Shown here: positions 1,698 to 62,233 of the stretch, piece after piece
How the letters are laid out: every line of letters starts with the position of its first letter
Position numbering within the stretch: position 1 is the stretch's first letter
Source of the DNA: Solidesulfovibrio carbinolicus
GTDB taxonomy: Bacteria; Desulfobacterota; Desulfovibrionia; Desulfovibrionales; Desulfovibrionaceae
Direction: 5' to 3'
NCBI RefSeq assembly: GCF_004135975.1
Contig: NZ_CP026538.1
Coordinates: 2,356,001-2,420,000, forward strand
DNA length: 64,000 nt
The notes under the pieces: generated by a model
What the model saw: only the letters and a program-made list of their open reading frames with translations
What the model was told of the DNA's origin: nothing
Databases searched by the model: none
Made by a program: the position numbers and the translations under genes

Positions 1698-1779
1698 CCA
1701 TTTGGGGGGTCAGGGGGGCCTCAGGCCCCCAGCGGAGAGGTCCAGGAGAGGCAGAGCCTCTCCTGGCCGCCGGAGGCAC
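1698..1779 (-). repeat. Intergenic stem-loop element, copy A
   Basis: Minus-strand copy that begins ten bases after the ubiD stop codon. It carries the core GTGCCTCCGGCGGCC, a perfect 11-bp stem (CCAGGAGAGGC / GCCTCTCCTGG, loop TCT), then a second G/C hairpin and the C-tract ending in CCCCCCAAATGG. It is the longest copy, with an extra hairpin of about 30 bases compared with the others. No run of T follows, so it is not a textbook intrinsic terminator. The rest of the 1601-1788 gap shows nothing recognisable. Confidence 0.8.
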
Positions 1780-1788
1780 TTTCCTCGT

Positions 1789-3234
1789 CTACAACCCCAA
1801 TTCGCCCCAGACTGCGTCGATGCGGGCCTTGGTGGCCGGGTCCATGACCAGGGCGTCGGGCCAGCCCCGGGTATGACCTTCCTCGGGGCCTTTTTTCGTG
1901 GCGTCGATGCCCATCTTGCCGCCGAAGCAGGCCATGGGCGCGCTGTGGTCCAGGGCGTCGAGCGGGCCGTCCACGATGACCACGTCGCGCCGCGGATCGA
2001 CGTTGTTGCCCACGCGCCACCAGACTTCGGCCGTGTTTTGCACGTTGACCTCGGCGTCCACCACCACGATGAACTTGGTGAACATCATCTGGCCCAGGCC
2101 CCAGATGGCGTACATGATCTTGCGGGTCTGGCCGGGGTAGCGCTTGTCGATGGAGACGAAGCAGAAGTTGTGGAACACGCCTTCGACCGGCAGGCTCAGA
2201 TCGACGATTTCGGGCAGCTGCTTTTTGATCAGCGGCAAGAACAGGCGCTCGGTGGCCTTGCCCATGTAGGTGTCTTCCATGGGCGGCTGGCCGACCAGGG
2301 TGGCCGGATAAACGGCGTCCTCGCGGTGGGTGATGGCCGTTACGTGGAAGACCGGATAGTCGTCGGCCAGGGAGTAGTAGCCGGTGTGGTCGCCAAACGG
2401 GCCTTCGCGGCGGCGCTCGCCGGGTTCGACGTAGCCTTCCAGCACGAACTGGCTGTTGGCCGGAACCTGCAAGTCCACGGTCTTGCATTGCACGAGCTCC
2501 ACGGCCTTTTGGCGCAGGAAGCCGGCGAAGAGAAATTCGTCGATGTCGTCGGGCAGCGGCGCGGTGGCGGCATAGGTGCAGGCCGGGTCCGGGCCGATGG
2601 CCACGGCCACTTCCAGGCGCTCCCCGCGCTTTTCGGCCAGCCGGTAGTGGGCGGCGCAGCCCTTGTGGCGGTGCCAGTGCATCCCGGTGGTGGTCTTGTC
2701 GAAGACCTGCATCCGGTACATGCCGACGTTGCGTTTGCCAGTCTCGGGGTCCTTGGTGATGACCACCGGGAAGGTGATGAACGGGCCGGCGTCGCCGGGC
2801 CAGGTGGTGAGCACCGGCAGGATGGACAGGTCCACGGCGTCGCCGGTCAGGACCACGTCCTGGCAGGGGGCGCTGGCAACGGTCTTGGGGAAGATGCCGG
2901 CCATCTTGGCGAGCTTGGGCAACATTTTGAGCTTGTCGATAAGCCCTTCGGGCTTTTCCATCTCCAGCACGTCGTCGATGCGCCGGCCCAGGGCGTCGAG
3001 ATCCTCGGACTCCAGGGCCAGGTTCATGCGCGGGAAGGACCCGAAGGCGTTGGTCACCACCGGGAAGCGCGAACCCTTGGGATTTTCGAAATATAGCGCC
3101 GGCCCCACTGCCTTGGACACCCGGTCGGTGACCTCGGCGATTTCCAGATATGGGTCCAGGGGCGCAGCAATGCGCCTCAGTTCGCCCTTTTTGTCCAAAA
3201 GCCGCAAAAATTCCTGCAAATCCTTGTACGCCAT
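1789..3234 (-). CDS. UbiD family decarboxylase
   Basis: 481-residue member of the UbiD/MenG-type prenyl-FMN-dependent decarboxylases. Conserved landmarks are NVGMYRMQVFD (169-179), MHWHRH (185-190) and EGPFGDHTGYYS (277-288), the last being the signature of the family. Length matches full-size UbiD proteins. In an organism that uses the futalosine route (MqnC is encoded 3 kb away), a UbiD protein is a good candidate for the late decarboxylation in menaquinone synthesis, but aromatic-acid decarboxylation cannot be excluded. Activity would need a UbiX prenyltransferase encoded elsewhere. The gene stands alone and is followed by a repeat element. Confidence 0.92.
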   Translation of the reverse strand: MAYKDLQEFLRLLDKKGELRRIAAPLDPYLEIAEVTDRVSKAVGPALYFENPKGSRFPVVTNAFGSFPRMNLALESEDLDALGRRIDDVLEMEKPEGLIDKLKMLPKLAKMAGIFPKTVASAPCQDVVLTGDAVDLSILPVLTTWPGDAGPFITFPVVITKDPETGKRNVGMYRMQVFDKTTTGMHWHRHKGCAAHYRLAEKRGERLEVAVAIGPDPACTYAATAPLPDDIDEFLFAGFLRQKAVELVQCKTVDLQVPANSQFVLEGYVEPGERRREGPFGDHTGYYSLADDYPVFHVTAITHREDAVYPATLVGQPPMEDTYMGKATERLFLPLIKKQLPEIVDLSLPVEGVFHNFCFVSIDKRYPGQTRKIMYAIWGLGQMMFTKFIVVVDAEVNVQNTAEVWWRVGNNVDPRRDVVIVDGPLDALDHSAPMACFGGKMGIDATKKGPEEGHTRGWPDALVMDPATKARIDAVWGELGL

Positions 3235-3285
3235 GCGTGAACGCTCCGGGTGTGGTCGATCCGGCGTGACCGCCGGTAAGGGCTT

Positions 3286-4170
3286 TTATACGCGAAGCCG
3301 CAGCCCCGTAAAGGGCCGGGCCGCGCCGGCGATAAGCGGCGCAAAAAGTCCGCCGGACTCGGCCGGGGCAAGCGGCCCGAGATGCACGCAGACTGGCGCG
3401 AGTTCGCGATGGCCCAGGCGCACGGAAGTCAGGGCGGCGACAAGCCCTTCTCCGGCCTCGGGACGCTCCAGGGACAGCCGGTAACTGGCTCGGTTCATGG
3501 ACAGGGAAAAGATCCCGGAGACCCGGCCGGCCTCGGCCAGCCGGCCAAAGAGCCGCAAGGTAAATGTGCGGCCGGACCGCGTGACCAGGCCTTCGCTGGC
3601 GTCCAGACCGGGAAAGGCCCAAGGCAGGTAGACCGGCCGCCCGGCCTGAACCGGCAGGAAGGCCCGGGCCAGGCGCAGCAGTTCCCGCAGGCGACCGTAA
3701 AGGCCGGCCGCTTCTGGGGTGGACGCAAGCCAATCGAAAAGGCGTTTACGGGCGGCCAGCGGGGCCAGGGGCGCGTTTGGACCCGCCGCGCCTGTCTCGG
3801 CGAAAAGCGGCGGCCCGCGATGGAGCACGGCTTCGAAACGCGAGCGTGCATCGGCCAGGGCGGCCAGGAGCAGGGCCGGATCGTCCACGGCCGAGGGCGG
3901 CGGGGTGATGTCGCGCAGGAGCAGTTCCGGCTCCAGGCGTTCGATGCGGAAAACGAGTTCCCGCCCCAGGCTTGGTTCGTGGTCCAGGGCGGCCAGCAGC
4001 TTGTGGCCGGCCAGATTCACCCAGAAAAGGCCCTGGGGACCGGGCGCGAGGAGCCGGCCGCGTACGGTCTGGCCAACCTTCCGGCCGCGCTTGAAAGCCT
4101 GGGGATCGGAGCGGTCCCGACCGTCGCCGCCGGACGGCGTGCCGCCGGTAGAGCCCCCTGAGACGCGCAT
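3286..4170 (-). CDS. Hypothetical protein, 294 aa
   Basis: I do not recognise a named family. After a Gly/Arg-rich, probably disordered start (1-35), the segment VGQTVRGRLLAPGPQGLF (about 32-49) and following GRELVFRIERL resemble the beta-rich module seen in flagellar hook-length-control-like proteins, but the match is weak. The rest is rich in Leu, Ala and Arg without membrane segments or a signal peptide. It lies between ubiD and a secreted protein gene on the same strand. Codon use is normal for the window. A regulatory or structural role cannot be inferred. Confidence 0.6.
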   Translation of the reverse strand: MRVSGGSTGGTPSGGDGRDRSDPQAFKRGRKVGQTVRGRLLAPGPQGLFWVNLAGHKLLAALDHEPSLGRELVFRIERLEPELLLRDITPPPSAVDDPALLLAALADARSRFEAVLHRGPPLFAETGAAGPNAPLAPLAARKRLFDWLASTPEAAGLYGRLRELLRLARAFLPVQAGRPVYLPWAFPGLDASEGLVTRSGRTFTLRLFGRLAEAGRVSGIFSLSMNRASYRLSLERPEAGEGLVAALTSVRLGHRELAPVCVHLGPLAPAESGGLFAPLIAGAARPFTGLRLRV

Positions 4171-4185
4171 GGCATGTCCTTCGTT

Positions 4186-4644
4186 TCAGGGCTTGCCGGT
4201 CAGTTCGAAGTAATCGGCCCGGTCTATGCCCGGGAATTCGAACACCGTCGGCGTACAGGTTCCTTCACGGATGACGCGTAGTTCGCAAGGCATGACCGCC
4301 CCGGCCTTGATGCCGTACTTGGCGGCGAAACGCGGTCCGGGCGGCATGGAGTTGATGAGCGTGAAGGTATGGACGACGTCTTGCTTGTAGAGCGGCTCGT
4401 CCGTGATGGGCTGGTTAGGCACGAACTGGAAGGTCATGGCCAGGGGCGGGTAGGGCGTGGGCACGCCGGCCGTGGGAGAATCCGGCTGCCAGGCCTTGAC
4501 GTCCACGAACGTGGCCGTGCCAGGGTAGCTCTCATAGCGGCAGGGGCCGCCCACGCGTTCGGGGCCGGCGGCCTGGGCCAGGGCAGGCAGACAGGCAAAG
4601 GCGGCAAGGACGGCGGACAACAGCAACAGGCAGGAACGGAGCAT
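4186..4644 (-). CDS. Secreted hypothetical protein, 152 aa
   Basis: The N-terminus (MLRSCLLLLSAVLAAFACLPALAQA) is a clear Sec signal peptide, probably cleaved after ALAQA near residue 25. The mature part is 125 residues with three cysteines (C35, C123 and C132 approximately), rich in Pro and Thr, and contains AKYGIKAGAVMPCELRV. No membrane anchor or known domain is apparent, so the protein is probably periplasmic. The start is supported by GGAGG eight bases upstream. It may be co-transcribed with its downstream neighbour, 15 bases away. Function unknown. Confidence 0.7.
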   Translation of the reverse strand: MLRSCLLLLSAVLAAFACLPALAQAAGPERVGGPCRYESYPGTATFVDVKAWQPDSPTAGVPTPYPPLAMTFQFVPNQPITDEPLYKQDVVHTFTLINSMPPGPRFAAKYGIKAGAVMPCELRVIREGTCTPTVFEFPGIDRADYFELTGKP

Positions 4645-4680
4645 GGCAAACCTCCTTTGGAGGCTGATGGACGATGGGCG

Positions 4681-5553
4681 TTATTTGGCCAACAGACGCA
4701 GGTACAGATCGCCGCGCATGGGGCCGATGCGCCGGCCCATGCCCTTGAGGCGGATGGGCCGGCCCACCACGAAATCCGGCGGCAGGGTGACTTCCACCAT
4801 GGTCGGCTTGGTATTGCCCAGGCCATGTCGGATGCCGACTCGTATGCGGGTTCCGGGGAGCAGACTGGCGCTTGGCAGATGCACGGTCTGTTCGTCGTCA
4901 AGCTGTTTTTTAAAGTATCCCTTGAGATTTTCCAAAAAGCCCTTGGACATGTCAAAGGATACAGCCTTGTCGCCCCAGCTGAACGACATTTCCCGAGCGC
5001 CCTTGGCCGCCACCTTTCTGGCGGTGCGCTGGGGGCCGCTTTTCACTTGCCGGTAGATGTCCTCGAAGACCTGCCGGGCAAAGGGGTCCTTGAGCAGGTC
5101 CTGAAGCACTTCCTCGCGGCGGAAATAGAACCCGGCGTCGTCGTTGTCCTTGGAGGCCTTGGTGTAGGCCTGCTTGGCTTTGCGCTGCTGCTGGCGCGCC
5201 CCGGCCTCGGCTCCAGGAGGCGGTGGGGGAGGCGGCGGCGGGCTGCCCGGGCGGGAAGTCCTCGCATCCGCGCCCGGACCCGGCGAAGCCTTGGGACCGG
5301 CGGTTTTGTCCTCCCCCGGCGGCCTGTAGCCGGCCGTGTCGTCGCGGTCGGCCAGATAGTGGCGCAGGAGCAGGTAGGCTTCGTTTAAGCGTTGGAACTT
5401 GCGCTTGGCCGCCGGATCGTCGGGATGCAGGTCCGGGTGAAGCTTGAAGGCAAGCTTGCGATAGGCCGATTTGACGGCCTCGATGTCGTCGCGGGCGGAA
5501 ACCCCAAGCAGGGCGCGCGCCTGATCCAGGCGCATGGAATCCTGTCCGCCCAT
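4681..5553 (-). CDS. DnaJ (J-domain) co-chaperone-like protein
   Basis: 290 residues. An N-terminal J-domain spans about 7-75 with the essential HPD at 39-41 (FKLHPDLHPDD). A low-complexity Pro/Gly linker with nine consecutive prolines follows (about 95-125). The C-terminal part (about 215-288) has the beta-rich substrate-binding character of CbpA/DnaJ (TRIRVGIRHGLG, then PIRLKGMGRRIGPMRGDLYL). There is no Cys-rich zinc domain, so it is a type II/III J-protein that would stimulate an Hsp70 partner. An ATG six codons in (MRLDQ) is an equally possible start. Confidence 0.88.
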   Translation of the reverse strand: MGGQDSMRLDQARALLGVSARDDIEAVKSAYRKLAFKLHPDLHPDDPAAKRKFQRLNEAYLLLRHYLADRDDTAGYRPPGEDKTAGPKASPGPGADARTSRPGSPPPPPPPPPGAEAGARQQQRKAKQAYTKASKDNDDAGFYFRREEVLQDLLKDPFARQVFEDIYRQVKSGPQRTARKVAAKGAREMSFSWGDKAVSFDMSKGFLENLKGYFKKQLDDEQTVHLPSASLLPGTRIRVGIRHGLGNTKPTMVEVTLPPDFVVGRPIRLKGMGRRIGPMRGDLYLRLLAK

Positions 5554-5565
5554 GGCCGCGCCGCC

Positions 5566-6018
5566 TTAAGGGTTGTCCGGACAGGTCTCGACCAGGGCCT
5601 CGGGCACGTCGGCGCCCCGGGGCCGGCAAAGTCCCCGGCTGGTCAGATAGTCGCGGCCTTGCCTGGCGAATTCGGCGTGGGGGGCCTGCATGTTGATGCC
5701 CGGGCAGTCCTCGGCGGCCATGGCGTGGCTGTCGGCGTCGATGATGTTGCCGCGAAAGTACGGCCAAGCCCGGCATACGTCGGGACGGGCCGGATGCACC
5801 GAGCAACCATCTGCATAAAAAATGCAATAGTTGTCGTCGCCGGTGATCAGCCGTTGCCGGCCGCCGACGAACTCGGCATAGCGCGAAAGAAACGTCTCGC
5901 GGTCAAGCTTTACGTGGCCGGCCAGCCGCTCGATGTCGGCGGCGGACATGACGATGCCGCCCACGCCCTGACAGCAGTGGCCGCAACGTTGACAGACAAA
6001 GGCGGTGACGGTCGGCAT
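5566..6018 (-). CDS. YkgJ family cysteine cluster protein
   Basis: 150 residues with the CxxCxxCC pattern near the N-terminus (CQRCGHCCQG, about 9-18), followed by CIFY, CSVHPARPDVCRAWPY and later Cys residues. This spacing defines the YkgJ/UPF0153 zinc- or iron-binding cluster family, whose role is not established. The start at 6018 was chosen because AGGAAG sits seven bases upstream of that ATG; an in-frame GTG two codons earlier is less well placed. It lies between the DnaJ-like and CoA-binding genes, 12 and 10 bases away, in an apparent operon. Confidence 0.9.
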   Translation of the reverse strand: MPTVTAFVCQRCGHCCQGVGGIVMSAADIERLAGHVKLDRETFLSRYAEFVGGRQRLITGDDNYCIFYADGCSVHPARPDVCRAWPYFRGNIIDADSHAMAAEDCPGINMQAPHAEFARQGRDYLTSRGLCRPRGADVPEALVETCPDNP

Positions 6019-6027
6019 TTCCACTTC

Positions 6028-6441
6028 CTATCCCCAAAGGCGGCGGTATTCAACCATGGTGCAACGATCTTCCACGACAACGACGCCCGTCGGCGCGAGC
6101 ATGGCCCGGGCCTCGGGGCTGGCGATACCCGTCTGCATCCAGAAACCGGCCGGCCTGTGCGCCAAGGCCAACACCTCGGCGGCATGGCCGGGGCAGGCCA
6201 TCGGGGCGCGGAAAAGGTTCACTAAATCGATGGGTTCGTCGATCAAGGCCAGGGTCTTGCGGGCCGGGATGCCCCAGACCTCGGCCCGGGCCGGATGCAC
6301 CGGAATGACCCGGAAGCCGGCGGTTAAAAGGAAACGTCCGACCATGTCCACGTCCGTACCGGGACGGTCCTTGGCCCCAATGAGCGCGATGGTCTTGCCC
6401 GGGGCAAGCATTTCCTTGAGCGTCGAATCGGCGTAGAGCAT
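6028..6441 (-). CDS. CoA-binding (YccU-type) protein
   Basis: 137-residue single-domain Rossmann protein of the CoA-binding family. The glycine-rich turn is IALIGAKDRPG (about 18-28), followed by GFRVIPVHP (about 42-50) and VWGIPARKTL, all typical of YccU-like proteins. Such proteins bind CoA or related nucleotides; their physiological role is unclear. The start is the ATG at 6441 with GGAGA just upstream; a longer reading from 6498 would overlap the promoter region of mqnC. It is divergent from mqnC, with 78 bases between the two starts for both promoters. Confidence 0.9.
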   Translation of the reverse strand: MLYADSTLKEMLAPGKTIALIGAKDRPGTDVDMVGRFLLTAGFRVIPVHPARAEVWGIPARKTLALIDEPIDLVNLFRAPMACPGHAAEVLALAHRPAGFWMQTGIASPEARAMLAPTGVVVVEDRCTMVEYRRLWG

Positions 6442-6519
6442 CAGGTCTCCGGGTGTTTTCGTTTGCGGCAAAAACGTGTATCGGCTTGGCGGCATCACTG
6501 CCTGGAGGTCAACCGCACC

Positions 6520-7563
6520 ATGCCGGATCGCGCCATAGCCCGCTTAAGCTTGGACCAGGCCCGCGCCCTTTGGGAAAACGAGGACGTCTTTTCCCTGGGC
6601 AAATTGGCCCACGCCGCCCGACTCGCCCTGCATCCCGAGCCGGTGGTCACCTACATCGTGGACCGCAACATCAATTATACCAATATTTGCGCCTGCGGCT
6701 GCCGGTTCTGCGCCTTTTTCAAGGCCCCGGGGCAGCCGGGAGGCTACGTGCTTTCGCCCGAGGAACTGGCCGCCAAGGTGGCCGAGACCGTGGAGCTCGG
6801 CGGCTGGCAGATCCTGCTTCAGGGCGGGATGCATCCCGAACTGCGGCTGGGCTTTTACACCGACATGCTGTCCGCGTTGCGCCGCCAGTTCCCCAGCGTG
6901 GCCGTGCACGGCTTCTCGCCGCCGGAAATTGTTTTCCTGGCCGAAATGGAAGGGCTGTCCATAGCCGAGGTCCTGGCCGAACTCAAGGCCGCGGGACTGG
7001 CTTCCCTGCCTGGCGGCGGGGCGGAAATCCTCTCCGATCCCGTCCGCAGCCACGTTTCGCCCAAAAAATGCCCGGCCGACGCCTGGATCGGCGTCATGGC
7101 CGAAGCCCACAAGCAAGGCCTTCGCTCCACCGCCACCATGGTCATCGGCCTTGGCGAGACCATCGAACACCGGCTGGAACACCTGCTGCGCATCCGCGAT
7201 CTGCAAGACAGGACTGGCGGCTTCACGGCCTTCATCCCCTGGTCCTTCCAGCCCGGCAACACGGCGTTAGACGTGCCGGAAACCTCGTCCTGGGAATACC
7301 TGCGAACGCTGGCCCTGTCGCGGCTGTTCCTGGACAACGTGCCCAACATCCAGGCCTCCTGGGTGACCCAAGGTCCCATGATCGGCCAGACCGCGCTCTA
7401 TTTCGGAGCCAACGATTTCGGTTCCACCATGATCGAGGAAAACGTGGTGGCCGCCGCCGGCGTCCACTTCCGCATGGAAGAAGAAGAACTGCGCCGGCTG
7501 GTGGTCAAGGCCGGCTTCGAGCCCGTGCGCCGCAACATGGATTACTCGCGCCGCGAAGGGTGA
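6520..7563 (+). CDS. mqnC: Cyclic dehypoxanthinyl futalosine synthase
   Basis: 347-residue radical SAM enzyme of the futalosine menaquinone pathway, which cyclises dehypoxanthinyl futalosine. The CX3CX2C iron-sulfur motif is C57-C61-C64 (ICACGCRFC). Other family marks are NINYTNIC just before it, LQGGMHPEL, HGFSPPEI and VIGLGET, and the C-terminal ANDFGSTMIEENVV. The ATG at 6520 follows GGAGGT; an upstream in-frame reading from 6463 adds nothing conserved. The other mqn genes are not in the window. A repeat element (copy B) starts 29 bases after the stop. Confidence 0.96.
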   Translation: MPDRAIARLSLDQARALWENEDVFSLGKLAHAARLALHPEPVVTYIVDRNINYTNICACGCRFCAFFKAPGQPGGYVLSPEELAAKVAETVELGGWQILLQGGMHPELRLGFYTDMLSALRRQFPSVAVHGFSPPEIVFLAEMEGLSIAEVLAELKAAGLASLPGGGAEILSDPVRSHVSPKKCPADAWIGVMAEAHKQGLRSTATMVIGLGETIEHRLEHLLRIRDLQDRTGGFTAFIPWSFQPGNTALDVPETSSWEYLRTLALSRLFLDNVPNIQASWVTQGPMIGQTALYFGANDFGSTMIEENVVAAAGVHFRMEEEELRRLVVKAGFEPVRRNMDYSRREG

Positions 7564-7591
7564 GGGTATAGGGGAGGGGGAGAGAGGCGAA

Positions 7592-7635
7592 GAATGCCTC
7601 CGGCGGCCGGGGGCCTGAGGCCCCCAGACCCCCCG
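7592..7635 (+). repeat. Intergenic stem-loop element, copy B
   Basis: Plus-strand copy in sense orientation 29 bases after mqnC. Core ATGCCTCCGGCGGCC, stem CCGGGGGCC with its pairing arm reading GGCCCCCAG (one variant base), then AGACCCCCC. It faces copy C, 80 bases away, so the two form a convergent pair in the space between the convergent genes mqnC and the EamA gene. Confidence 0.85.
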
Positions 7636-7714
7636 CATAAAGACAAAGGTTAAAGGGGAGTTGGCGCAACTTGGCGTTGTTGTCGGCGTTTGAAATAGTT
7701 AAACGCAAACGGGA

Positions 7715-7753
7715 TTCCAAAGGGCGGCAGCCCTTTGGCCGCCGGAGGCTTTT
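7715..7753 (-). repeat. Intergenic stem-loop element, copy C
   Basis: Minus-strand copy, sense orientation, about 17 bases after the EamA stop codon. Core AGCCTCCGGCGGCC is followed by a perfect 9-bp stem CCAAAGGGC / GCCCTTTGG with loop TGCC. The stem sequence is unlike that of copies B, E and G but pairing is kept. The DNA between B and C (7636-7714) is noticeably richer in A+T and shows no gene. Confidence 0.82.
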
Positions 7754-7769
7754 CCCCTACCTACTACTG

Positions 7770-8675
7770 CTACCCGTGCGTCTTCCTTCCCTTCCGCGCC
7801 GGACGGGCGCTTAAGCCCACGCCGCCGAGCACGGTCGCGCCGCCGAGGAGTTGGCCGGCGTTTAAGGTCTCATCCAAAATGAGCCAGGAGAGCAGGCAGG
7901 TGATGACGGGGATGAGGTTGATGAATGCCGCCGCCTTGGCCGCCGGGGCGTTGCACACGCCGTAGTTGTACAGGCCGTAGGCCACGAAGGTGACGGCCAG
8001 TCCCAGGAAAAAAACGGCCGCCACCGGCCCAAAGGTCAGCTTGGTCGGCATGGGCGCGAACACCAGGGCCGGCGAAAAAAAGGCCATGCCGACAAAACTC
8101 TGGGCCGCCGTGAGATAGAGCGGCTTGTGGCGCGCCGCCAGTTTCTTGCAGGTGATGATGTAGCCCACGGCACAGCACATGGCCAAAAATTCCAGGAAAT
8201 TGCCGAGGATGGGACGCGGGGCCTGCGGTCCGGCCTCGCCGGCCAGACTCATGACGGCCACCCCGGCCACGGCCAGGCAAAGCCCGGTCATGGCCCGGAC
8301 TTCAATTTTTTCTTTAAGAACGAAAGAGGCGGCCACGGCCGTCATCACCGGCAACATGGCGGTGATCATGCCGGCCTGGGAAGCCTGGGTCATGGTCAGG
8401 GCCTGGGACTCGAAGATGAAATAGAGGCACGGCTCGCAAAAGGCCATGAAGACGATGCCCTTCCAATCCGCCCGGCCGGCGGCGAAGCCGCCCATGCGCC
8501 GCCATATGAGCGCGAACACGGCCGAGGCCACGGCCATGCGGCAAAAGACCGCCAGCAGTGGCGAAAATTCCCGCATGGCGATCTTCATGGCGATAAAGGA
8601 GCTGCCCCACAAAATAGAGGCGCCGACCAGGGCGAAAAAGGCCGCCCAGGACATTTCGCGGTTTGTCTGCGACAC
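7770..8675 (-). CDS. EamA/DMT-superfamily transporter
   Basis: 301-residue integral membrane protein with about ten hydrophobic helices in two repeated EamA halves (about 10-145 and 155-290). Motifs typical of the drug/metabolite transporter family are ILWGSSFIAMKIAM near residue 20-33 and the second-half equivalent GLAVTFVAYGLYNYGV. Members export metabolites or amino acids; the substrate here cannot be told. It is divergent from the M24 peptidase gene, with 132 bases between them holding the promoters, and convergent with mqnC. Confidence 0.9.
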   Translation of the reverse strand: MSQTNREMSWAAFFALVGASILWGSSFIAMKIAMREFSPLLAVFCRMAVASAVFALIWRRMGGFAAGRADWKGIVFMAFCEPCLYFIFESQALTMTQASQAGMITAMLPVMTAVAASFVLKEKIEVRAMTGLCLAVAGVAVMSLAGEAGPQAPRPILGNFLEFLAMCCAVGYIITCKKLAARHKPLYLTAAQSFVGMAFFSPALVFAPMPTKLTFGPVAAVFFLGLAVTFVAYGLYNYGVCNAPAAKAAAFINLIPVITCLLSWLILDETLNAGQLLGGATVLGGVGLSARPARKGRKTHG

Positions 8676-8807
8676 GATGGGCCTTCCTTGCGGCCTGAGC
8701 CCGGCGAAATCGCGCCGGATGCGTTTTGGTAAGGCATCCGGGACGCGCCCGGACGGAGGCTATGCCCGGCGCGGCCGAATATTGCAACCCCAACGGAGTG
8801 GTATCAC

Positions 8808-10034: not shown

Positions 10035-10125
10035 TCCACTCGCTCGTCGTGGGCCGGCGCTGTTCCCGCCCACGGCGAGCAAAACACACCGCTCCCGCCC
10101 ACCCCAGCACTCCCTCCCCCCTTTA

Positions 10126-10173
10126 CCATTTGGGGGGCCGGGGGGGCGGTCGGCCCCCAGCCGCCGGAGCATC
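10126..10173 (-). repeat. Intergenic stem-loop element, copy D
   Basis: Minus-strand copy, sense orientation, nine bases after the fmdE stop. Core GATGCTCCGGCGGCT is slightly diverged. The hairpin GGGGGC / GCCCCC follows, then CCCGGCCCCCCAAATGG, the same outer end as copy A. It lies between the convergent M24 peptidase and fmdE genes. Confidence 0.8.
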
Positions 10174-10181
10174 TCCCCCTC

Positions 10182-10790
10182 TCATATCTTTTGCTCCACC
10201 TTCCCAAAGCACGGGATGCACAGCGTCTGGCCGGCGAAGCGGCGGGTGCGCGATTCCATGACGGATTCGCCGCAGGCCTGGCAGACGAGGCTGGAGAGGA
10301 TGGCCGCCCGGCGCGGCGGGGGCGTTTGGGGCTCGCTTCGGACGAAAAGGCTTTCGGGGTCGCCGGCCAGGATGCGCGCGGCGCATTGCCGGGACAGGGC
10401 GGGCAGTTGTTCCCGGGCGGCCGCGTCGCCGGCGTTTGCGGCTTGGCGCACGGCGGCGAATTCGGGATCAACGGCGGCCAGGGCGTCCGGGCGCAGGAGC
10501 AGGCGCACTCCGGCCCCGTCGGAGCGGCGATGGAAGGTGAAGGCCGTCTTGCCGTAGTCGCGGTGGACGAGGTTGCCTTTGCCGAAGGTGCAGCCGAGCA
10601 GGGCTTGGATGGCGTCCACGGCGCACATGTCGGTTTCGACCACGGCCACGATGTCCTCGTCGCCGTCCCGGCCGCACACGGCCTGGCCCAGGCGCGCGGC
10701 CTGGATGCCGATGGCCAGCCCTGGGCACATGTGGCCATGGTAATCCACCGCCCGGGCGGTCAATGTTGGTATATCGGTGAAATCTTGCAT
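10182..10790 (-). CDS. FmdE family protein with C-terminal zinc ribbon
   Basis: 202 residues. The N-terminal FmdE domain starts with YHGHMCPGLAIGIQAARL (17-34) and continues with the conserved VVETDMCAVDAIQ and GCTFGKGNL segments, ending near residue 145. A treble-clef-like zinc ribbon follows: C170, C173, C191 and C194. FmdE was named from a gene beside tungsten/molybdenum formylmethanofuran dehydrogenase genes; its reaction is not known. Here it follows a FecBCD-type importer on the same strand, which suggests a link to metal or cofactor handling. The start has AGGAG seven bases upstream. Confidence 0.9.
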   Translation of the reverse strand: MQDFTDIPTLTARAVDYHGHMCPGLAIGIQAARLGQAVCGRDGDEDIVAVVETDMCAVDAIQALLGCTFGKGNLVHRDYGKTAFTFHRRSDGAGVRLLLRPDALAAVDPEFAAVRQAANAGDAAAREQLPALSRQCAARILAGDPESLFVRSEPQTPPPRRAAILSSLVCQACGESVMESRTRRFAGQTLCIPCFGKVEQKI

Positions 10791-10824
10791 GGGAGATCTC
10801 CTAATATGTTGATATAGAAGATGA

Positions 10825-10874
10825 AGATGCCTCCGGCGGCCGGGGGCCTCAGGCCCCCGGACCCCCTATATGGG
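10825..10874 (+). repeat. Intergenic stem-loop element, copy E
   Basis: Plus-strand copy lying between the binding-protein gene and fmdE, both on the minus strand. It is therefore antisense to the presumed transcript, unlike most copies. Core GATGCCTCCGGCGGCC, stem CCGGGGGCC / GGCCCCCGG, then ACCCCC. Its presence inside the spacer may split the operon or process the transcript. Confidence 0.85.
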
Positions 10875-10890
10875 TTAAGGAGGGAGGAGA

Positions 10891-31319: not shown

Positions 31320-32236
31320 AGACCCGGGTTGTCTGTCTGGCCGGAGCCACGGGCACGGGCAAGACCGCCGCGGCCATCGCCCTGGCCCGGGCTTTTGGCG
31401 GCGAAGTGATAAATGTGGATTCGCGCCAAGTTTACCAGGGCCTGCCGGTGCTGACCGCTCAGCCTAATGACGAGGAGCGCGCCGTCTGTCCGCACCACCT
31501 CTACGGCGATACGCCGCTGGATCAGCCCGTGGCGGCCGGCGATTTCGCCGTGCGGGCCAGGGCCTGCGCCGCGTCCATTGCCGGGCGCGGCCGGCTGCCG
31601 CTGTTTGTCGGCGGCACAGGCCTCTATTTTAGGGCCATCCTCGGCGGGCTGGCCCCCATCCCGCCCGTGCCGGCCGAGGTGCGCGCCGCCGTCGCCGACG
31701 ACTGGTGCCGGCTGGGGCCGGCCGCGATGCACGCCCGGCTGGCCGAGCGCGATCCCGACTACGCGGCCAAGATCGCCCCGGCCGACCGCCAGCGCGTCAC
31801 CCGCGCTCTGGAGGTCGAGGCCGCAACCGGCCGCAGCTTTTCCGATTGGCACCGCCAAGGCGACCCCGACGCCCCGGACTATGACGTCATACACCTTGGG
31901 CTGACCCTACCCCTGGAGGAACTGGGGCCTCGGCTGGCCCGGCGCATCGAGGCCATGGCCGCCGGCGGCGCCCTCGAGGAAGTGCGCGCCGCCCTGGACC
32001 GCTATCCGCCGGACGCCCCGGGTTTAAGCGGCATCGGCGGGCCGGAGCTGGCGGCTTACCTTTCCGGCAGCTGCGGCCTGGGCCGGGCCAAGGCCGACTG
32101 GCTGACCAACACCCGTGCCTATGCCAAGCGGCAAAGAACCTGGTTTCGCAAGGAACCGGACATCGTCTGGTTTGGCCCGGGCGACGAGGTCGGTCTGCTG
32201 GAACTGGTCGGGAAGCGTTTGGAGGGCGAGGCCTGA
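31310..32236 (+). CDS. miaA: tRNA dimethylallyltransferase
   Basis: 308 residues from a GTG start; a second GTG two codons later overlaps the coaD stop (GTGA) and is equally possible. MiaA transfers a dimethylallyl group to A37 of tRNAs reading UNN codons. P-loop GATGTGKT (12-19), INVDSRQVYQGLPVLTAQP, VGGTGLYFRAIL, and the C-terminal TRAYAKRQRTWFRKEPDI are conserved. The stop overlaps the first base of the amidase gene. No ATG exists nearby. Confidence 0.95.
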   Translation: MRVKTRVVCLAGATGTGKTAAAIALARAFGGEVINVDSRQVYQGLPVLTAQPNDEERAVCPHHLYGDTPLDQPVAAGDFAVRARACAASIAGRGRLPLFVGGTGLYFRAILGGLAPIPPVPAEVRAAVADDWCRLGPAAMHARLAERDPDYAAKIAPADRQRVTRALEVEAATGRSFSDWHRQGDPDAPDYDVIHLGLTLPLEELGPRLARRIEAMAAGGALEEVRAALDRYPPDAPGLSGIGGPELAAYLSGSCGLGRAKADWLTNTRAYAKRQRTWFRKEPDIVWFGPGDEVGLLELVGKRLEGEA

Positions 32237-33402
32237 TGGACCGGCGGCGCGTCCTGTCGTTTTTGGCCGCAGCCGGCGGCTTGGCCTGGCTTCGCCCATC
32301 CGTCCTGTTGGCGGCCTCGGCCGACGAGCTGGCCGGAGAAGGGCAGGCTGAACTCACCGGCGGCAATGTGGCCAAGGCCCTGATCCTGCTCCACGAAGCC
32401 CAGTCCAAGGATCCGCGCAATGACCGGGTTCAGGCACTGTTAGGCCGGGCCTATTTCCAGCAAGGCGACGCCCGGACGGCGCTTACCCATTTCACCCTAG
32501 CCGTGCGGCTCAATCCCGAAGACACGCTGTCGCGTTTGCTCGCCGACACCATCAGCCAGTTTCCCATGCCCGCCGTCAAGGGCGGATCGGGCCGCGAAAC
32601 GTCGTCTTCCCGGACCCGGCCTTCCAAGTTGGCCCAGGACGCCAAAGCCGAACGCGAAGCCTTGGCCAAGGGCGCAGGGAAATCTTCCCGACAAGGGCCG
32701 TGGCGCGTGTTGGTCGATGCCGGCCACGGCGGCCTGGACGCGGGCGCGGCCGTCGGCGGTCTGCGTGAAGCTGACCTGGCGCTGGATCTGGCCTTGCGTA
32801 TGGCCCGGGCGCTGGCCCCGGCCAGAAACGAGGTGGTCATCCACCTCACCCGCACCGCCGACGTGTCCCTGCCCGGCTGGGCCAGGGCTGGACTGGCCGG
32901 TTTCTACGGCGCGGATCTGCTCGTTTCGCTCCATGCCGCCCGGGTGAGCGATCCGGCGGCCATGGGCGTCGTGGCCTACGGCTACGGCCGCGAACCTTCC
33001 GACGCCCTGGCCGCCCTGGTCGCCCGGGTCGAAAACGCCGCCTACGGACCCGGCGCGTCCTGGAAATCCCGAGGTGGAGAAGGGCTTTTCCTGTCCGCCG
33101 CCAATGATGCCGTGGGACAGGCCCGGTTTGAACGGGGCCGGGAACTGGCCCGCGCCCTCATTCGCGCCATCCCCGCCGCCTCGCCGCTCCCGCCGCGCGC
33201 CGCCGGTTCAGCCCCCCTCGAACTGCTGGAAGAAGCCGACGCGCCAGGCATTTTCCTGGAAACCGGCTTTCTCTCCAACGCTGACGCCGCCGCCGCCCTG
33301 GGCAGCCCCGACAAGCGCCAAGCCCTGGCCCAGGCTCTGGCCGACGCCCTGCTGGCAGCGCTGCGGGGAGTGGAGATGCCTCCGGCGGCCGGGAGGGGGT
33401 AA
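32236..33402 (+). CDS. N-acetylmuramoyl-L-alanine amidase with TPR region
   Basis: 388 residues. An RR-containing signal (MDRRRVLSFLAAAGGLAWL) suggests Tat or Sec export to the periplasm. A TPR pair spans about 30-95, a linker to 153, then an Amidase_3 domain. Zinc ligands and catalytic residues are H164 (DAGHGGLDAG), E178 (READLALD), H233 (SLHAARVSD, usually SLHAN) and the Glu in LETGFLSNADAA. It cleaves peptides from murein glycan. The last residues, MPPAAGRG, are encoded by repeat copy F, so the end of the protein is not ancestral. Confidence 0.9.
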   Translation: MDRRRVLSFLAAAGGLAWLRPSVLLAASADELAGEGQAELTGGNVAKALILLHEAQSKDPRNDRVQALLGRAYFQQGDARTALTHFTLAVRLNPEDTLSRLLADTISQFPMPAVKGGSGRETSSSRTRPSKLAQDAKAEREALAKGAGKSSRQGPWRVLVDAGHGGLDAGAAVGGLREADLALDLALRMARALAPARNEVVIHLTRTADVSLPGWARAGLAGFYGADLLVSLHAARVSDPAAMGVVAYGYGREPSDALAALVARVENAAYGPGASWKSRGGEGLFLSAANDAVGQARFERGRELARALIRAIPAASPLPPRAAGSAPLELLEEADAPGIFLETGFLSNADAAAALGSPDKRQALAQALADALLAALRGVEMPPAAGRG

Positions 33403-33420
33403 CCCCCTCCCGGACCCTCC
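33374..33420 (+). repeat. Intergenic stem-loop element, copy F
   Basis: Plus-strand copy that starts inside the amidase gene and contains its stop codon. Core GATGCCTCCGGCGGCC, then a perfect 11-bp stem CCGGGAGGGGG / CCCCCTCCCGG with loop TAA, whose TAA is the stop codon itself, then ACCCTCC. It faces copy G. Confidence 0.85.
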
Positions 33421-33425
33421 CTGCC

Positions 33426-33478
33426 TGGGGGCGCGTTTTCCCCTTGAGGCTCCGCCTCAAGGGGAAAACGCGCCCCCA
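33426..33478. repeat. 53-bp perfect palindrome, 25-bp arms
   Basis: Two exact 25-bp arms (33426-33450 and 33454-33478) separated by the three bases TCC. The arms begin TGGGGGCGCGTTTTCC and end CTTGAGGC. It lies between the facing copies F and G and resembles neither in sequence. A few A follow but no strong T-run, so simple termination is not proven, although a transcript would form a very stable hairpin from either strand. Confidence 0.85.
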
Positions 33479-33517
33479 AACAAGAAGGACAGGCGGGAAA
33501 ACGGCGCAGACCGCAAA

Positions 33518-33567
33518 CCAATTGGGGGGTCCGGGGGCCTCAGGCCCCCGGCCGCCGGAGGCATCTT
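33518..33567 (-). repeat. Intergenic stem-loop element, copy G
   Basis: Minus-strand copy in sense orientation beyond the tatA terminator. It is the best consensus copy: core AGATGCCTCCGGCGGCC, stem CCGGGGGCC / GGCCCCCGG, then ACCCCCCAATTGG. Faces copy F with about 97 bases between them. Confidence 0.87.
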
Positions 33568-33581
33568 AAAATTATGCACGC

Positions 33582-53705: not shown

Positions 53706-53725
53706 GGAGCTCCGATGCCGTTGCT

Positions 53726-56044: not shown

Positions 56045-56279
56045 GGGGCGACTGCTCTTGGGGTTCCATCAAACAGGTCGCCGCCCGGCCCGGACTGTTC
56101 CCGGTCAGCGGACGGCGACAAGAAAAACGAACCCGCCTGGGGCGGAAAACCGGCGTATCCCTCAGGCCCTGCGGGGCCAGGCGTGTCGTGTATTTTACTA
56201 TAATGCCTGCGTTCGATCCTTTCGGACAAACGGGAGGACGCCATTCCCTGCAAAAAACGAAGGCATTACGGGATGCCGG

Positions 56280-56597: not shown

Positions 56598-56618
56598 AAT
56601 GCTCCTTGTCGGCCCCGA

Positions 56619-58300: not shown

Positions 58301-58442
58301 GGGGGCTCCTTATGGGCGTGTGTCCCCGCCTAGGGCGGCAGGCCGGCCACAGTAAAAACGGCCCCCATTCGTGTCAAGCCGCCGCACAGGCCCCGGGACG
58401 TTTACGGATGGCCCAAATCATGCCAGAAAAGGCCCTCGCGCC

Positions 58443-59378
58443 ATGAGCACCAACGACGCCTCCCCGGCCTCTCCCCGTCCGGCCCATCCCTGGGTCGATC
58501 GTTATATCGAGCACCTGATCGTGGCCAGGGGCCTGTCCGAGCATTCCATCGCCGCTTATTCTACCGACATCGCAGGCTTTTTAATTTTCTTAAACGACCA
58601 CGGCGCGGCGCTGGAAGCCACCACCGACGAGACCGTGCTGCTCTATCTCATGCATCTGCGCTCGCGCGGGCTGGCCAGCCGGTCCCTGGCCCGCCACCTC
58701 TCGGCCTTGCGCGGCTTTTTCGCCTTTGCCGCCGACGAATCCTGGCTGCCGGCCTCGCCCGCCGCGCTCATTGAAAACCCCAAGCTGCCGCGTCTTTTGC
58801 CCGACGTGCTCTCCCGCGACGAGATGACCAGACTTCTCGACGCCCCGGATACGGCCACGCCCCTGGGCTACCGCGACCGCACCATGCTGGAGCTGCTCTA
58901 CGCCGCCGGCCTGCGCGTCTCCGAACTCGTGGGCCTGACCCTGGCCGATTTCGACGCCCAGGCCGGCCTTCTGCGGGTCTTCGGCAAGGGTTCCAAGGAG
59001 CGCGTCACTCCCATCCATTCCCTGGCCATGGAGTTTCTCTCCACCTACCTCGCCAGTGTTCGCGGCGCGTTTGGTCCCAAGGACCAGCATGTGTTTCTCA
59101 ACCGCTCGGGCAAGGGGCTGACCCGGCAGGCCGTGTGGAAGGGCATCAAGCGCTATGCCCTGGCCGCCCAGGTCTCCACCCGCATTTCCCCCCACAGCTT
59201 GCGCCATTCCTTTGCCACCCATCTCCTCGACGGCGGGGCCGACCTGCGCACCGTGCAGATGCTGCTGGGCCACGCCGACATCAGCGCCACCGAAATCTAC
59301 ACCCATGTCCAGGCCGGCCGCTTGCTGGCCGTCCACCGCGCCCACCATCCCCGGTCCCGTGACCGGGACAAAAGTTAA
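58443..59378 (+). CDS. Tyrosine recombinase XerC/XerD
   Basis: 311 residues. N-terminal SAM-like core-binding domain (about 17-105) and catalytic domain with all residues: R158 (AGLRVSEL), K182 (GKGSKERV), H251 and R254 (HSLRHSFATH), H277 (LLGHADIS) and nucleophile Y286 (EIYTHV). The closeness to the XerD consensus and the absence of any mobile-element genes suggest the chromosomal dimer-resolution recombinase rather than an integrase. Whether it is XerC or XerD is not certain. Confidence 0.93.
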   Translation: MSTNDASPASPRPAHPWVDRYIEHLIVARGLSEHSIAAYSTDIAGFLIFLNDHGAALEATTDETVLLYLMHLRSRGLASRSLARHLSALRGFFAFAADESWLPASPAALIENPKLPRLLPDVLSRDEMTRLLDAPDTATPLGYRDRTMLELLYAAGLRVSELVGLTLADFDAQAGLLRVFGKGSKERVTPIHSLAMEFLSTYLASVRGAFGPKDQHVFLNRSGKGLTRQAVWKGIKRYALAAQVSTRISPHSLRHSFATHLLDGGADLRTVQMLLGHADISATEIYTHVQAGRLLAVHRAHHPRSRDRDKS

Positions 59379-59393
59379 AGTGACGCTTTATCC

Positions 59394-62177
59394 ATGAGTT
59401 CCCCCCAGAAGCCCGATCTGCTCCCAGCCCCCGTCATCGTCACCGGACACGCCAACGCCGATTTCGACTGCCTGGCCGCCATCATCGCCGCCGGCAAGCT
59501 CTATCCCGGCGCAACGCTCATCTTCCCGGGCAGCCAGGAAAAAAACCTGCGGCACTTTTTCATCCAAAGCGCCACCTACATGTTCAATTTCAAGAACTTC
59601 AAGGAGATTGAACCGACAAGCGTACGGCAGCTCGTCCTGGTCGATACCCGCCAACGCTCCCGCGTGCCCCATATCGAGGCGGTTTTCGACAATCCGGGCC
59701 TGGTCATCCACTGCTACGACCACCATCCCGACACCGACGAGGATGTCTCCGCCGCCCTGTCCGTGGTGAAAAACTGGGGCTCAACCACCGGCATCCTCAT
59801 GGACGCCATCATGGAAAAGGGCCTGCCCCTGACCCCGGACGAGGCCACCATCCTGGGCCTTGGCATCTATGAGGATACCGGCTCCTTCACCTTCGCCTCC
59901 ACCACCGAGCACGATCTGGCCGCCGCCGCCTGGCTGCGCTCTCGCGGCATGGACGTGGGCGTCATCGCCGACCTCATGACCCGGGAGCTGTCCTCGGAAC
60001 AGATCACCATCATGAGCCAGCTCATCGAGACGGCGCAAACCCACGACATCAACGGCATCGAGGTGGTCATCGCCGAGGCCACCTCCGACCAGTACATCGG
60101 CGACTTCGCCCTGCTCGTCCACAAATTCCTGGACATGGAAAACCTGCGGGTGCTTTTTGCCATCGGCCTCATGAACGACCGGGTGCACCTGGTCGCCCGT
60201 TCACGCACCCCGGACGTGGACGTGGGCAAGATCTGCTCGGCCCTGGGCGGCGGCGGCCACCCCTACGCCGCCTCGGCCTCCATCAAAAACATGACCCTGA
60301 CCCAGGTGCGCGAAGAGCTTTTCGGCTTGCTCTACGCCCAGATCAATCCGCAGATCCACGCCCGCCAGCTCATGAGCAAGCCGGCCGTGTCCATCGAGGA
60401 CAGCGCCACCATGCGCCGGGCCGAGGAGATCATGACCCGCTACGGCTTAAAAGCCTTGCCCGTGGTGGCCAAGGGCGGCCGGCGTTGCGTGGGGGTCATT
60501 GAGCACGACATCATGGACAAAGCCATCAACCACGGCCTGGGCGAGGTGCCGGTGTCCGAATACATGATGCGCGATCCGGCCGTCATCACCCCCGACACGG
60601 ACCTCTACGCCGTCATGGAAGTGATCCTCGGCCGCCGCCAGCGTCTGGCCCCGGTGGCCGAAGACGACAAGCTCGTCGGCGTCGTCACCCGCACCGATCT
60701 GGTCAACACCCTGGTCAAGGAGCCGTCCCGCATCCCGGAATCGCTTTTGCCCGAGCGCAAAAAAGACCGCAACGTGGCTGGAATGCTGCGCGAGCGCCTG
60801 CCCAAAAAGCTGCTCGCCCTGCTCAAGCAGGCCGGTGAACTCGGCCAGCAGACCGGCCACGCCGTCTACGTGGTCGGCGGCTTTGTCCGCGATCTGCTCC
60901 TCAAGCACCCCAACTTTGACGTGGATCTGGTGGTCGAGGGCGACGGTGTGGCCTATGCCGCCGAACTGGCCCGCATCTACGGCGGCCGTTACAAATCCCA
61001 CCCCAAGTTCAAGACCGCCGTGGTCATCCTGCCCGACGGCCAGCGGGTGGACGTGGCCACCGCCCGCCTGGAATACTACGAATACCCGGCCGCCCTGCCC
61101 ACGGTGGAACTCTCTTCCATCAAAATGGACCTGTACCGCCGGGATTTCACGGTCAACGCCCTGGCCTTGCACCTCTCGCCCGAGCGCTTCGGCGATTTGG
61201 TCGACTTCTTCGGGGCCCAGCGCGACATCAAGGACCGGGTGCTGCGGGTGCTCCACTCCTTAAGCTTCGTCGAGGACCCCACCCGCATCGTGCGCGCCAT
61301 CCGTTTCAGCGAGCGCTTCGGCTTCCGCATCGGCGGCCAGACCGACCGGCTGATCAAAAACGCCGTGCGCCACAGCTTTTTCCACAAGCTCTCCGGCTCC
61401 CGGGTCATGCACGAACTGCGGCTCATTTTCGAGGAGAAAACGCCGCTGTCCTGCCTGCGCCGGATGCAGGACTACAAGCTCCTGGCCGCCATTCATCCGC
61501 TCCTGGCGCTGACGCCCTCCAAGGAAGCCGTGCTCCTGGAAGTGGAAAACGTCATTAACTGGTACCGCCTGCTCTACATCGAACCCCAGCCCCTGGTCTG
61601 GATGCTCTACTTCCTGGGGCTTTGCACGGGCCTTGACCCGGAACAGTTCGCCATCATCGCCCGCCGCCTCAACTTCTCCAAACGCCAGGCGGCCGAGATG
61701 GCCGCCCTGCGCCAGCAGATCCGCGACACCGCCCAAGGCATCTTCAACTGGGAATACCACAAGGGGCCGCCCTCGGAGCTCTATTTCCTCCTCGAACCCA
61801 TGCCCCTTGAAGGCGCGCTCTACCTCATGGCCCGCAACCCCCGCGAGCCGCTGCAGAAGTACGTGTCCCTGCACCTGACCACGCTGCGCCACAAGCGGGT
61901 GGAGGTCACGGGCAACGACCTCAAGGCCTTGGGCGTCGAGGCCGGGCCGCGCTACGCCGACATCCTGCGCCGGGTGGTCGGCGCGGCTATCGACGGGCTG
62001 GCCGTGTGCCGGGCCGAACAGCTTGAACTGGCCCGCCGCCTGGCCAAGGGCGAACCCGTGGCTCCCCTCCTCGCCCGCCAACCCGGCGGCGATCGTTGCC
62101 AGTTGCCCATGGAGAGTGAGGAGAGAGAAGAAAAGATGCCGGCGGCCGGGGGGGATTATCCCCCCCGGACCCCCTAA
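59394..62177 (+). CDS. DHH-CBS-polyA polymerase multidomain tRNA nucleotidyltransferase
   Basis: 927 residues. A DHH phosphoesterase domain (about 15-290, with YDHHPD near 108 and GGGGHPYAAS near 285) is followed by two CBS domains (about 320-375 and 390-445) and a class II nucleotidyltransferase (GGFVRDLLL near 495, DVDLVVEGDG near 509) with its RNA-binding helices. This layout is that of the A-adding half of split CCA-adding systems, acting on tRNA 3' ends. The last residues (KMPAAGG and beyond) come from repeat copy H. Confidence 0.93.
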   Translation: MSSPQKPDLLPAPVIVTGHANADFDCLAAIIAAGKLYPGATLIFPGSQEKNLRHFFIQSATYMFNFKNFKEIEPTSVRQLVLVDTRQRSRVPHIEAVFDNPGLVIHCYDHHPDTDEDVSAALSVVKNWGSTTGILMDAIMEKGLPLTPDEATILGLGIYEDTGSFTFASTTEHDLAAAAWLRSRGMDVGVIADLMTRELSSEQITIMSQLIETAQTHDINGIEVVIAEATSDQYIGDFALLVHKFLDMENLRVLFAIGLMNDRVHLVARSRTPDVDVGKICSALGGGGHPYAASASIKNMTLTQVREELFGLLYAQINPQIHARQLMSKPAVSIEDSATMRRAEEIMTRYGLKALPVVAKGGRRCVGVIEHDIMDKAINHGLGEVPVSEYMMRDPAVITPDTDLYAVMEVILGRRQRLAPVAEDDKLVGVVTRTDLVNTLVKEPSRIPESLLPERKKDRNVAGMLRERLPKKLLALLKQAGELGQQTGHAVYVVGGFVRDLLLKHPNFDVDLVVEGDGVAYAAELARIYGGRYKSHPKFKTAVVILPDGQRVDVATARLEYYEYPAALPTVELSSIKMDLYRRDFTVNALALHLSPERFGDLVDFFGAQRDIKDRVLRVLHSLSFVEDPTRIVRAIRFSERFGFRIGGQTDRLIKNAVRHSFFHKLSGSRVMHELRLIFEEKTPLSCLRRMQDYKLLAAIHPLLALTPSKEAVLLEVENVINWYRLLYIEPQPLVWMLYFLGLCTGLDPEQFAIIARRLNFSKRQAAEMAALRQQIRDTAQGIFNWEYHKGPPSELYFLLEPMPLEGALYLMARNPREPLQKYVSLHLTTLRHKRVEVTGNDLKALGVEAGPRYADILRRVVGAAIDGLAVCRAEQLELARRLAKGEPVAPLLARQPGGDRCQLPMESEEREEKMPAAGGDYPPRTP
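62134..62176 (+). repeat. Intergenic stem-loop element, copy H
   Basis: Plus-strand copy inside the 3' end of the nucleotidyltransferase gene. Core GATGCCGGCGGCC (three bases shorter), stem CCGGGGGGG / CCCCCCCGG with loop ATTAT, then ACCCCC; the stop codon lies in its last bases. It faces copy I only 14 bases away. Confidence 0.85.
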
Positions 62178-62190
62178 CCCGTTTCTTTAT

Positions 62191-62233
62191 CTAGGGGGTC
62201 TGGGGGCCTCAGGCCCCAGCCGCCAAGGCATCT
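62191..62233 (-). repeat. Intergenic stem-loop element, copy I
   Basis: Minus-strand copy between the nucleotidyltransferase and hisD genes: AGATGCCTTGGCGGC, then GGGGCC / GGCCCC stem, AGACCCCC. It is antisense to the plus-strand transcript of its neighbours. Confidence 0.8.

Follow-up and report, generated by a model that had tools for sequence, protein, structure and literature searches.

What is known of the systems closest to the repeat described here? GTAG-REPs are defined as palindromes with an unpaired GTAG tag at one end (PMC3733652; PMC2817692), and CGTC-REPs by a CGTC, TGTC or CCTC tag, a stem whose positions 1-2 are AT pairs, loops of 4-5 nt and CCA tails (Di Nocera, 2013; PMC3733652). 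REPs also serve as targets of insertion sequences: IS621, of the IS110 family, inserts into E. coli REPs by means of a bridge RNA (PMC11208160), and other IS elements targeting REPs are named in PMC1525189. The repeat of Solidesulfovibrio carbinolicus resembles the GTAG REP/RAYT system in being short, palindromic, extragenic and of high copy number, in combining a variable stem with a fixed unpaired tag, in lying near gene 3' ends, in forming pairs of opposite orientation and in being a target of IS110; it differs in the tag itself, GCCTCCGGCGG, in its longer invariant part and in that no RAYT was found adjoining. With CGTC-REPs it has in common a tagged palindrome, an occurrence in several phyla and the lack of a known dedicated transposase, but here GGCGG is placed between CCTCC and the stem, so that the CCTC present in the core does not adjoin the latter, most loops measure 3 nt and A(0-3)CCC forms the tail. 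The reading we favor, at a probability of roughly 0.5, is that of REP-like palindromes with their own tag, which probably act as a hairpin at mRNA 3' ends and on whose tag an IS110-family element lands.

The starting point was a window of 64,000 nucleotides (contig NZ_CP026538.1, positions 2,356,001 to 2,420,000), in which a sequence-only reading had proposed at least nine copies of a dispersed stem-loop family. A covariance model, R1, whose 38 training copies all come from the own genome and include the seven window copies A to G but not H and I, recovers the same nine at E<1e-5, with left edges 5 to 22 nt from the start coordinates given before, and a tenth match at E=0.04; the string GATGCCTCCGGCGGCC, with up to three mismatches, occurs 15 times in the window against 4.28 expected from shuffling. 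Copy A (1718..1786, minus strand, 61.8 bits) consists of the core and a AGGAGAGG hairpin, with a second hairpin and a C-tract that reach to about 1697, and its core lies about 11 nt past the stop of the gene at 1789-3234(-). Copy B (7587..7651, plus, 60.0 bits), with its core 32 nt past the called gene 6520-7563(+), faces copy C (7693..7758, minus, 45.1 bits), which carries an AAAGGG hairpin 20 nt, counted from the core, past gene 7770-8654(-). In copy D (10115..10179, minus, 57.3 bits), whose core is 11 nt past gene 10182-10790(-), one C is missing from the core and the hairpin is imperfect; copy E (10820..10884, plus, 71.8 bits) is antisense and flanked by two minus-strand genes. Copy F (33369..33437, plus, 66.9 bits), with a GGGAGGGG hairpin, overlaps the 3' end of gene 32236-33402(+), its core starting 25 nt before the gene end, and faces copy G (33507..33571, minus, 61.3 bits), whose core and 5' arm are absent at this site in the relatives G133 and G150. 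Finally, copy H (62129..62192, plus, 45.9 bits), with a core that lacks TCC and is full at the same site in G150, overlaps both the end of gene 59394-62177(+) and the facing, antisense copy I (62176..62238, minus, 39.6 bits), which has the core GCCTTGGCGGC. The three facing pairs of the sequence-only reading (B/C, F/G and H/I) thus reappear, as does, with our own gene caller, its count of seven sense copies at gene ends (A, B, C, D, F, G and H, with E and I antisense). The C-tract endings it had described hold for most copies, with C (AATCCC) and D (GGCCCCCC) deviating. Folding z-scores are modest, falling below -2 in four of the nine copies and reaching +0.47 in copy D.

The family extends far beyond the window, so that it is dispersed as proposed and by no means confined to these few copies. 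The exact 13-mer GCCTCCGGCGGCC is found 245 times (119 + 126) in the 4.69-Mb genome, the reversed pattern not once, and the genome holds at least 150 copies, the best 150 of 10,465 candidates scored all having E<=4.6e-8. An earlier regular expression for the element was too loose (312 matches, 172 on the reversed sequence) and was replaced by the covariance model. In a sample of 61 stretches, comprising the window and 60 scattered pieces of 20 kb each (1.264 Mb of 4.689 Mb, 27%), the model gives 116 matches at E<0.01, of which 107 are at E<=7.4e-5; extrapolation from these 107 yields a genome total of about 400. Each unit leads from the invariant GCCTCCGGCGG into a hairpin that starts at the very next base and has a loop of mostly 3 nt, and from there into a C-rich tail of A(0-3), sometimes T, and then CCC. 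Stems begin with CC, CT, GC or TT, and the 28 distinct 5' arms of the own-genome sample vary widely in sequence with pairing preserved, arm/tail versions including AGAGAGGGG/ACTCTCC and AAAGGG/AAACCC. In a 38-row hairpin alignment, both sides have changed in 36 cells versus 7.6 in shuffled alignments, and 96.0% of cells are paired versus 89.4 in shuffles, with one of five covariation measures, that of further pair types, no higher than in shuffles.

Relative to genes, as delineated by our own codon-usage gene caller rather than a published tool, the elements show a strong preference for gene ends. A single one of the 107 sampled copies lies inside a called gene; 106 have a called upstream gene, to which 82 are sense and 24 antisense (binomial p=1.3e-8). 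The core is found -40 to 60 nt from the stop codon in 75 of the 82 sense copies (75 of 106 overall), at a median of 19 nt, compared with a mean of 9.4 +/- 2.9 and a maximum of 21 in 2,000 runs of random placement. The first 15 nt past the stop have a purine fraction of 0.75-0.76 at element-bearing ends and 0.46-0.48 at other ends, and among pairs within 350 nt, 13 are tail-to-tail and none back-to-back. Placed in sense just past the stop, the elements would become part of the mRNA 3' end, and, judging from this arrangement, a role as an mRNA 3'-end hairpin is the most likely one. In this genus, the elements are retained just past stop codons behind a purine-rich spacer, and the stable hairpin would most likely stop 3'-to-5' decay or separate neighboring transcripts.

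An ordinary intrinsic terminator, which would likewise present a GC hairpin soon past the stop, was rejected, as none of the nine hairpins in the window is directly followed by a T-run, in agreement with the sequence-only reading; only copies F and G have TTTT at the modelled 63-69 nt or in the 15 nt that follow. A terminator of unusual form, a hairpin acting without a U-run and perhaps dependent on a factor, would account for the sense placement at gene ends, and T-run terminators are somewhat less frequent where an element is present (6 of 69 element ends, as opposed to 77 of 546 gene ends, taken on ends with a gap of at least 60 nt). This difference is small, however, and by T-run frequency a terminator role is weakly disfavored; 29 of the 69 ends precede a gene on the same strand, in some copies with only 59-81 nt from core to next start (e.g. 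L188, L029, L186, L181, L021 and L151), which places these inside likely operons. In other hosts, elements also occur antisense near start codons, unlike Rho-independent terminators, and PMC1852404 lists Desulfovibrio desulfuricans G20, a member of the family, among bacteria in which over 60% of convergent gene ends use ordinary intrinsic terminators. We therefore consider an unusual terminator improbable, and prefer a hairpin that would protect or delimit the transcript.

The preference for gene ends proposed by the sequence-only reading is thus strong in this genus, but its sense bias does not hold generally, as seen in other hosts at loci chosen via the AAAGGG version of the element. Among copies with a called upstream gene, 44 of 54 are on the same strand in Desulfovibrio sp. 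DV, 40 of these within 60 nt, and 31 of 34 in Solidesulfovibrio UBA7700, 29 of these within 60 nt. In the Desulfovibrionaceae MAG X3, 13 of 16 are same-strand, yet just 4 of the 13 lie within 60 nt of the stop; Ess09-06 has five of nine on the same strand and the alphaproteobacterium UBA2562 one of four. With one-mismatch cores included, D16-76 shows 14 same-strand and 16 opposite copies plus three inside called genes, and SUG1264 four of seven same-strand; an earlier sample of SUG1264 had six of six same-strand. In the Selenomonadaceae MAG RGIG5097, seven of ten copies are antisense, mostly near start codons, and the upstream flank is T-rich instead of purine-rich. At L046, L053, L056 and L132 of this genome, the antisense element stands just upstream of the start codon, with a T-rich stretch before the core; such an orientation brings the GGAGG of the complement near the ribosome-binding site.

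Other repeats accompany the elements in places. Perfect palindromes of at least 14 bp occur in the next ~190 nt after 18 of the 107 elements, 14 of them being 23-33 bp long. Long palindromes follow elements or separate facing ones, as does the perfect 25-bp palindrome at 33426..33478 between copies F and G of the window, and further ones at L017, L153, L165, L026, L152, L160, L030 and L164; they differ in sequence, some having GGGGCGC..TTTT in common. At L195:4915-5380 (G073:C53), four elements form an array; about 166-169 bp separate three of these from one another, and each unit contains two extra hairpins.

Are these elements REPs? The sequence-only reading had considered REP-like mobile palindromes, and architecture and placement fit this description, but the link to a RAYT is not found. 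The elements are high-copy intergenic palindromes that carry no unpaired GTAG tag, and no Y1 transposase flanked by the repeat was seen in the genome. Y1_Tnp, at E<=0.001, is absent from six of 14 same-genus genomes and from 13 of 24 core-bearing genomes, a set which overlaps the 14 and includes the complete G058 with its 363 cores. A RAYT-type transposase, suggested earlier as a check, could not be tied to the elements in same-genus genomes, core-bearing genomes or fetched loci: none of 22 Y1_Tnp loci, some of which end at contig ends, holds an element, a near-match beside Y1_Tnp at L308 proved to be a different palindrome, and no elements lie beside the three Y1_Tnp matches of the own genome, which represent one IS200-like element. 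The latter, with a TnpA frame of 153 residues, is present at L009, L010 and L011, once open, once with an in-frame stop and once as a fragment. Because the GTAG tag is missing and so many core-bearing genomes are without a Y1 (RAYT-family) transposase, this is a REP-like class with its own tag GCCTCCGGCGG, not REP proper. That the elements are true REPs mobilized by a RAYT appears very improbable: their high copy number, extragenic position, palindromic form, tail-to-tail pairs and targeting by an IS110 element are those of REPs, but their tag is unlike both GTAG and CGTC, and the distribution of Y1_Tnp speaks against it. Mobility of the elements is putative, and many of the hosts are devoid of a Y1 (RAYT/IS200) transposase.

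A match to a known family did not emerge. In Rfam 15, the window yields only a tRNA at gathering score, and a copy-rich stretch of 11.5 kb yields ten matches, none at gathering score and most on a long palindrome; a sub-threshold CsrC match (E=0.34) overlaps one copy. A literature search with the core string, by title and the beginning of the abstract, retrieved nothing on bacterial repeats, and as most subscription journals fall outside its scope, this is weak evidence of novelty. The parts seen of PMC2267715, on stem-loop families, contain no Desulfovibrio and no such core, and those of PMC3733652 name no Desulfovibrio. Gene-end placement alone is ordinary for repeats of the REP-like kind; distinctive are the tag, the missing RAYT and a rule that governs the tail.

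Counting copies with an exact core and at least six perfect pairs, a tail of the form given above, A(0-3), sometimes T, and CCC, is present in 60 of 69 distinct own copies, against a background of 0.05-0.09, as well as 26 of 27 in D16-76, eight of nine in SUG1264, seven of eight in Selenomonadaceae RGIG5097, six of six pooled from Ruminococcaceae RUG12962, Neglectibacter and Clostridia RGIG8955, five of five in Alphaproteobacteria UBA2562, two of two in Old_saline and 10 of 15 in other Desulfovibrionaceae. Beyond this, the tail reads as the same-direction complement of the 5' arm, a mirror image of the 3' arm. Over 93 distinct arms, an A interior to the G-run meets a T in register in the tail in 14 of 20 cases (permutation mean 2.9, maximum 10 in 2,000), and the number of bases before the G-run tracks the number before the C-run with r=0.88. 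A later sample, 38 usable elements with 17 distinct arms from nine of ten further genomes, gives 9 of 12 (permutation mean 4.0, with 12 of 2,000 as high) and r=0.81; it was not neutral, since its pattern required CC[AG]G[AG]G arms and it consists mostly of pieces of G106, four related arms of which supply eight of the nine matches, and arms within one subfamily are not independent. When 83 distinct arms are pooled under slightly different filters, the interior A meets T in 22, A in 5 and C in 2 of 29 cases, T or A thus being in register in 27 of 29 (permutation mean 7.7, maximum 16 in 5,000), and C stands opposite G at 245 of 284 positions (mean 199, maximum 217 in 5,000). When 19 asymmetric arms are compared with a free shift of 0-2, however, the mirror is the better fit for 10, a direct repeat with a shift does equally well or better for 9, and the GGGAGGGG subfamily is mostly better fitted by the direct repeat.

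Such covariation of tail and 5' arm in parallel register may signal a triple helix. Antiparallel pairing would not produce it, and it would fit a tail accommodated in the hairpin's groove, with a triplex of the pyrimidine motif on one strand or of the purine motif (*H-DNA) on the other. We are aware of no mutational process that would generate mirror images, and a folded triplex is therefore the natural guess. A broader proposal, that the element is a triple-helix hairpin common to several phyla, and that an IS110 element has evolved a guide RNA in order to use the tag as a safe harbor, seems to us rather doubtful.

How stable are the sites? Of our own elements, 105 had enough flanking sequence, and both flanks were found in relatives' pieces for 22; leaving out two sites, a facing pair at which the relative carries an IS, 20 sites with 31 comparisons are available. 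The exact core is kept in 28 of the 31, in relatives about 93% identical. In four of the 28, the core is kept next to a hairpin of another subtype (L031:9339, L186:6933 and L186:10818 in G133, window:1718 in G150), and point changes that break pairs occur at orthologous sites as well, e.g. at L186:7189 in G133. Sites thus last while their hairpins get exchanged. From the relatives' side, no clean empty site was met among 23 tested, since of seven first scored as absent, six do carry the element and one is a match in a coding region; in the 13 relatives compared around the window, both gain and loss of the element at gene ends are seen over larger distances. The own genome and G133 are partly inverted relative to each other, position p corresponding to about 4.63-4.65 Mb minus p (L188 vs L211, L185 vs L212).

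The exchange of hairpin subtypes at fixed sites is what one might expect of selfish or neutral palindromic DNA, spread by some enzyme or by gene conversion and found at gene ends only because insertions in other places do harm. Also in keeping with this are the balanced orientation in D16-76 and the patchy occurrence within genera, with 0 versus 80 copies in one (g36), 0 to 48 in another (g20) and 0, 0, 18 and 0 in a third (g7). Yet the sense orientation and the median position 19 nt past the stop are tighter than mere avoidance of genes predicts, and neither back-to-back pairs nor clean empty sites were encountered. We regard this explanation as possible but less probable than our preferred reading, in which REP-like palindromes with their own tag would be maintained as hairpins at the 3' ends of transcripts.

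The last component of the preferred reading, the IS110 element, came from a site in G133 at which a 1,154-bp IS is inserted into the ortholog of element L187:16246. With the transposase of this IS as query, 31 matches were obtained in 14 same-genus genomes, among them 17 close copies with 73-100% identity (10 in G133, three in the own genome, two in G150 and one each in G121 and G143). These IS copies of about 1,154-1,159 bp (L255-L259, L262-L264, L266, L267, L269, L271, L273, L275, L277, L279 and L281) have 16 left and 16 right ends in the core, the left end of L264 and the right end of L257 being unread, so that every copy has at least one end there. The left junction reads GCCT|TGTATG in 16 copies, one of which shows just five flanking bases, and the right junction is CGTTG|CTCCGGCGG or nearly so in 16, one with an extra T and one with a base change further on. 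The orientation of the IS is identical throughout, and the target elements belong to several hairpin subtypes. Going by these junctions, the tag is the landing site of this IS110-family element, whose transposase matches PF01548 and PF02371 and which displays the dinucleotide core and target-matching guide stretches of IS110 elements with a bridge RNA. In the predicted fold of its non-coding left end, in four versions, TGCCT and GCCGGAG, found by eye, flank a loop and match the left and right target, GCCGGAG being the reverse complement of CTCCGGC; own copy b reads GATGCCT and, in a comparison by eye, the G150 version reads GTGCCT. Further along the predicted RNA, ACCGTTGC and ACAAG fit the ends of the IS itself. 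This guide layout is that of IS621, whose known targets are REPs (PMC11208160): both insert into a dispersed repeat, at a CT core, and both carry a left and a right guide-like stretch in their non-coding end, but repeat and guides differ, and the RNA here is a putative one. The IS110 element is therefore probably guided to the tag by a putative bridge RNA. Among distant IS110s (30-33% identity), none of 13 looked at, of 14, in G058 and G109 is flanked by the core, nor is any IS110 among the loci from outside the genus; core-targeting copies were found only within this genus.

The repeat itself is not so restricted. Within Desulfovibrionaceae, the 13-mer is patchy, occurring in 122 of 149 genomes, with counts of 117-363 in the own genus and 0 to 164 in others, against at most 8 for the reversed control. 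A pattern of the AAAGGG version with 33 fixed bases matched at least 118 stretches, with several phyla among the matches listed: Bacillota (Selenomonadaceae, Ruminococcaceae, Neglectibacter and Clostridia), Alphaproteobacteria UBA2562 and unclassified hosts. Counts of an 11-mer are 42-109 in G154-G157, G159 and G160, versus 1-19 for the reversed string; the excess is weak in G158 (12 versus 6), and G161 has 13 versus 0. On 38 loci from genomes of this sort, the own-genome model gives 53 matches at E<0.01, not all of which need be elements. Dispersed repeats with this anatomy are present in Bacillota and in an alphaproteobacterial MAG as well; two of the hosts, D16-76 and Neglectibacter sp. X58, are named strains, whereas single MAGs might be contaminated. 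In plasmid and phage collections, consensus queries had no match at E<=0.01.

That an AAAGGG version with 33 fixed bases is common to different phyla needs an explanation, be it horizontal spread or a shared function. To the described REP-like repeats, our characterization adds a tag that needs no RAYT in many of its hosts. The parallel covariation of tail and arm poses a testable structural puzzle, and, if the triplex proposal were true, the element would be a new kind of repeat, forming a triple helix at mRNA ends or in DNA. For the IS110 family, the insertions in Solidesulfovibrio present a natural case, outside E. coli, of an element apparently programmed to a repeat that serves it as a safe harbor.
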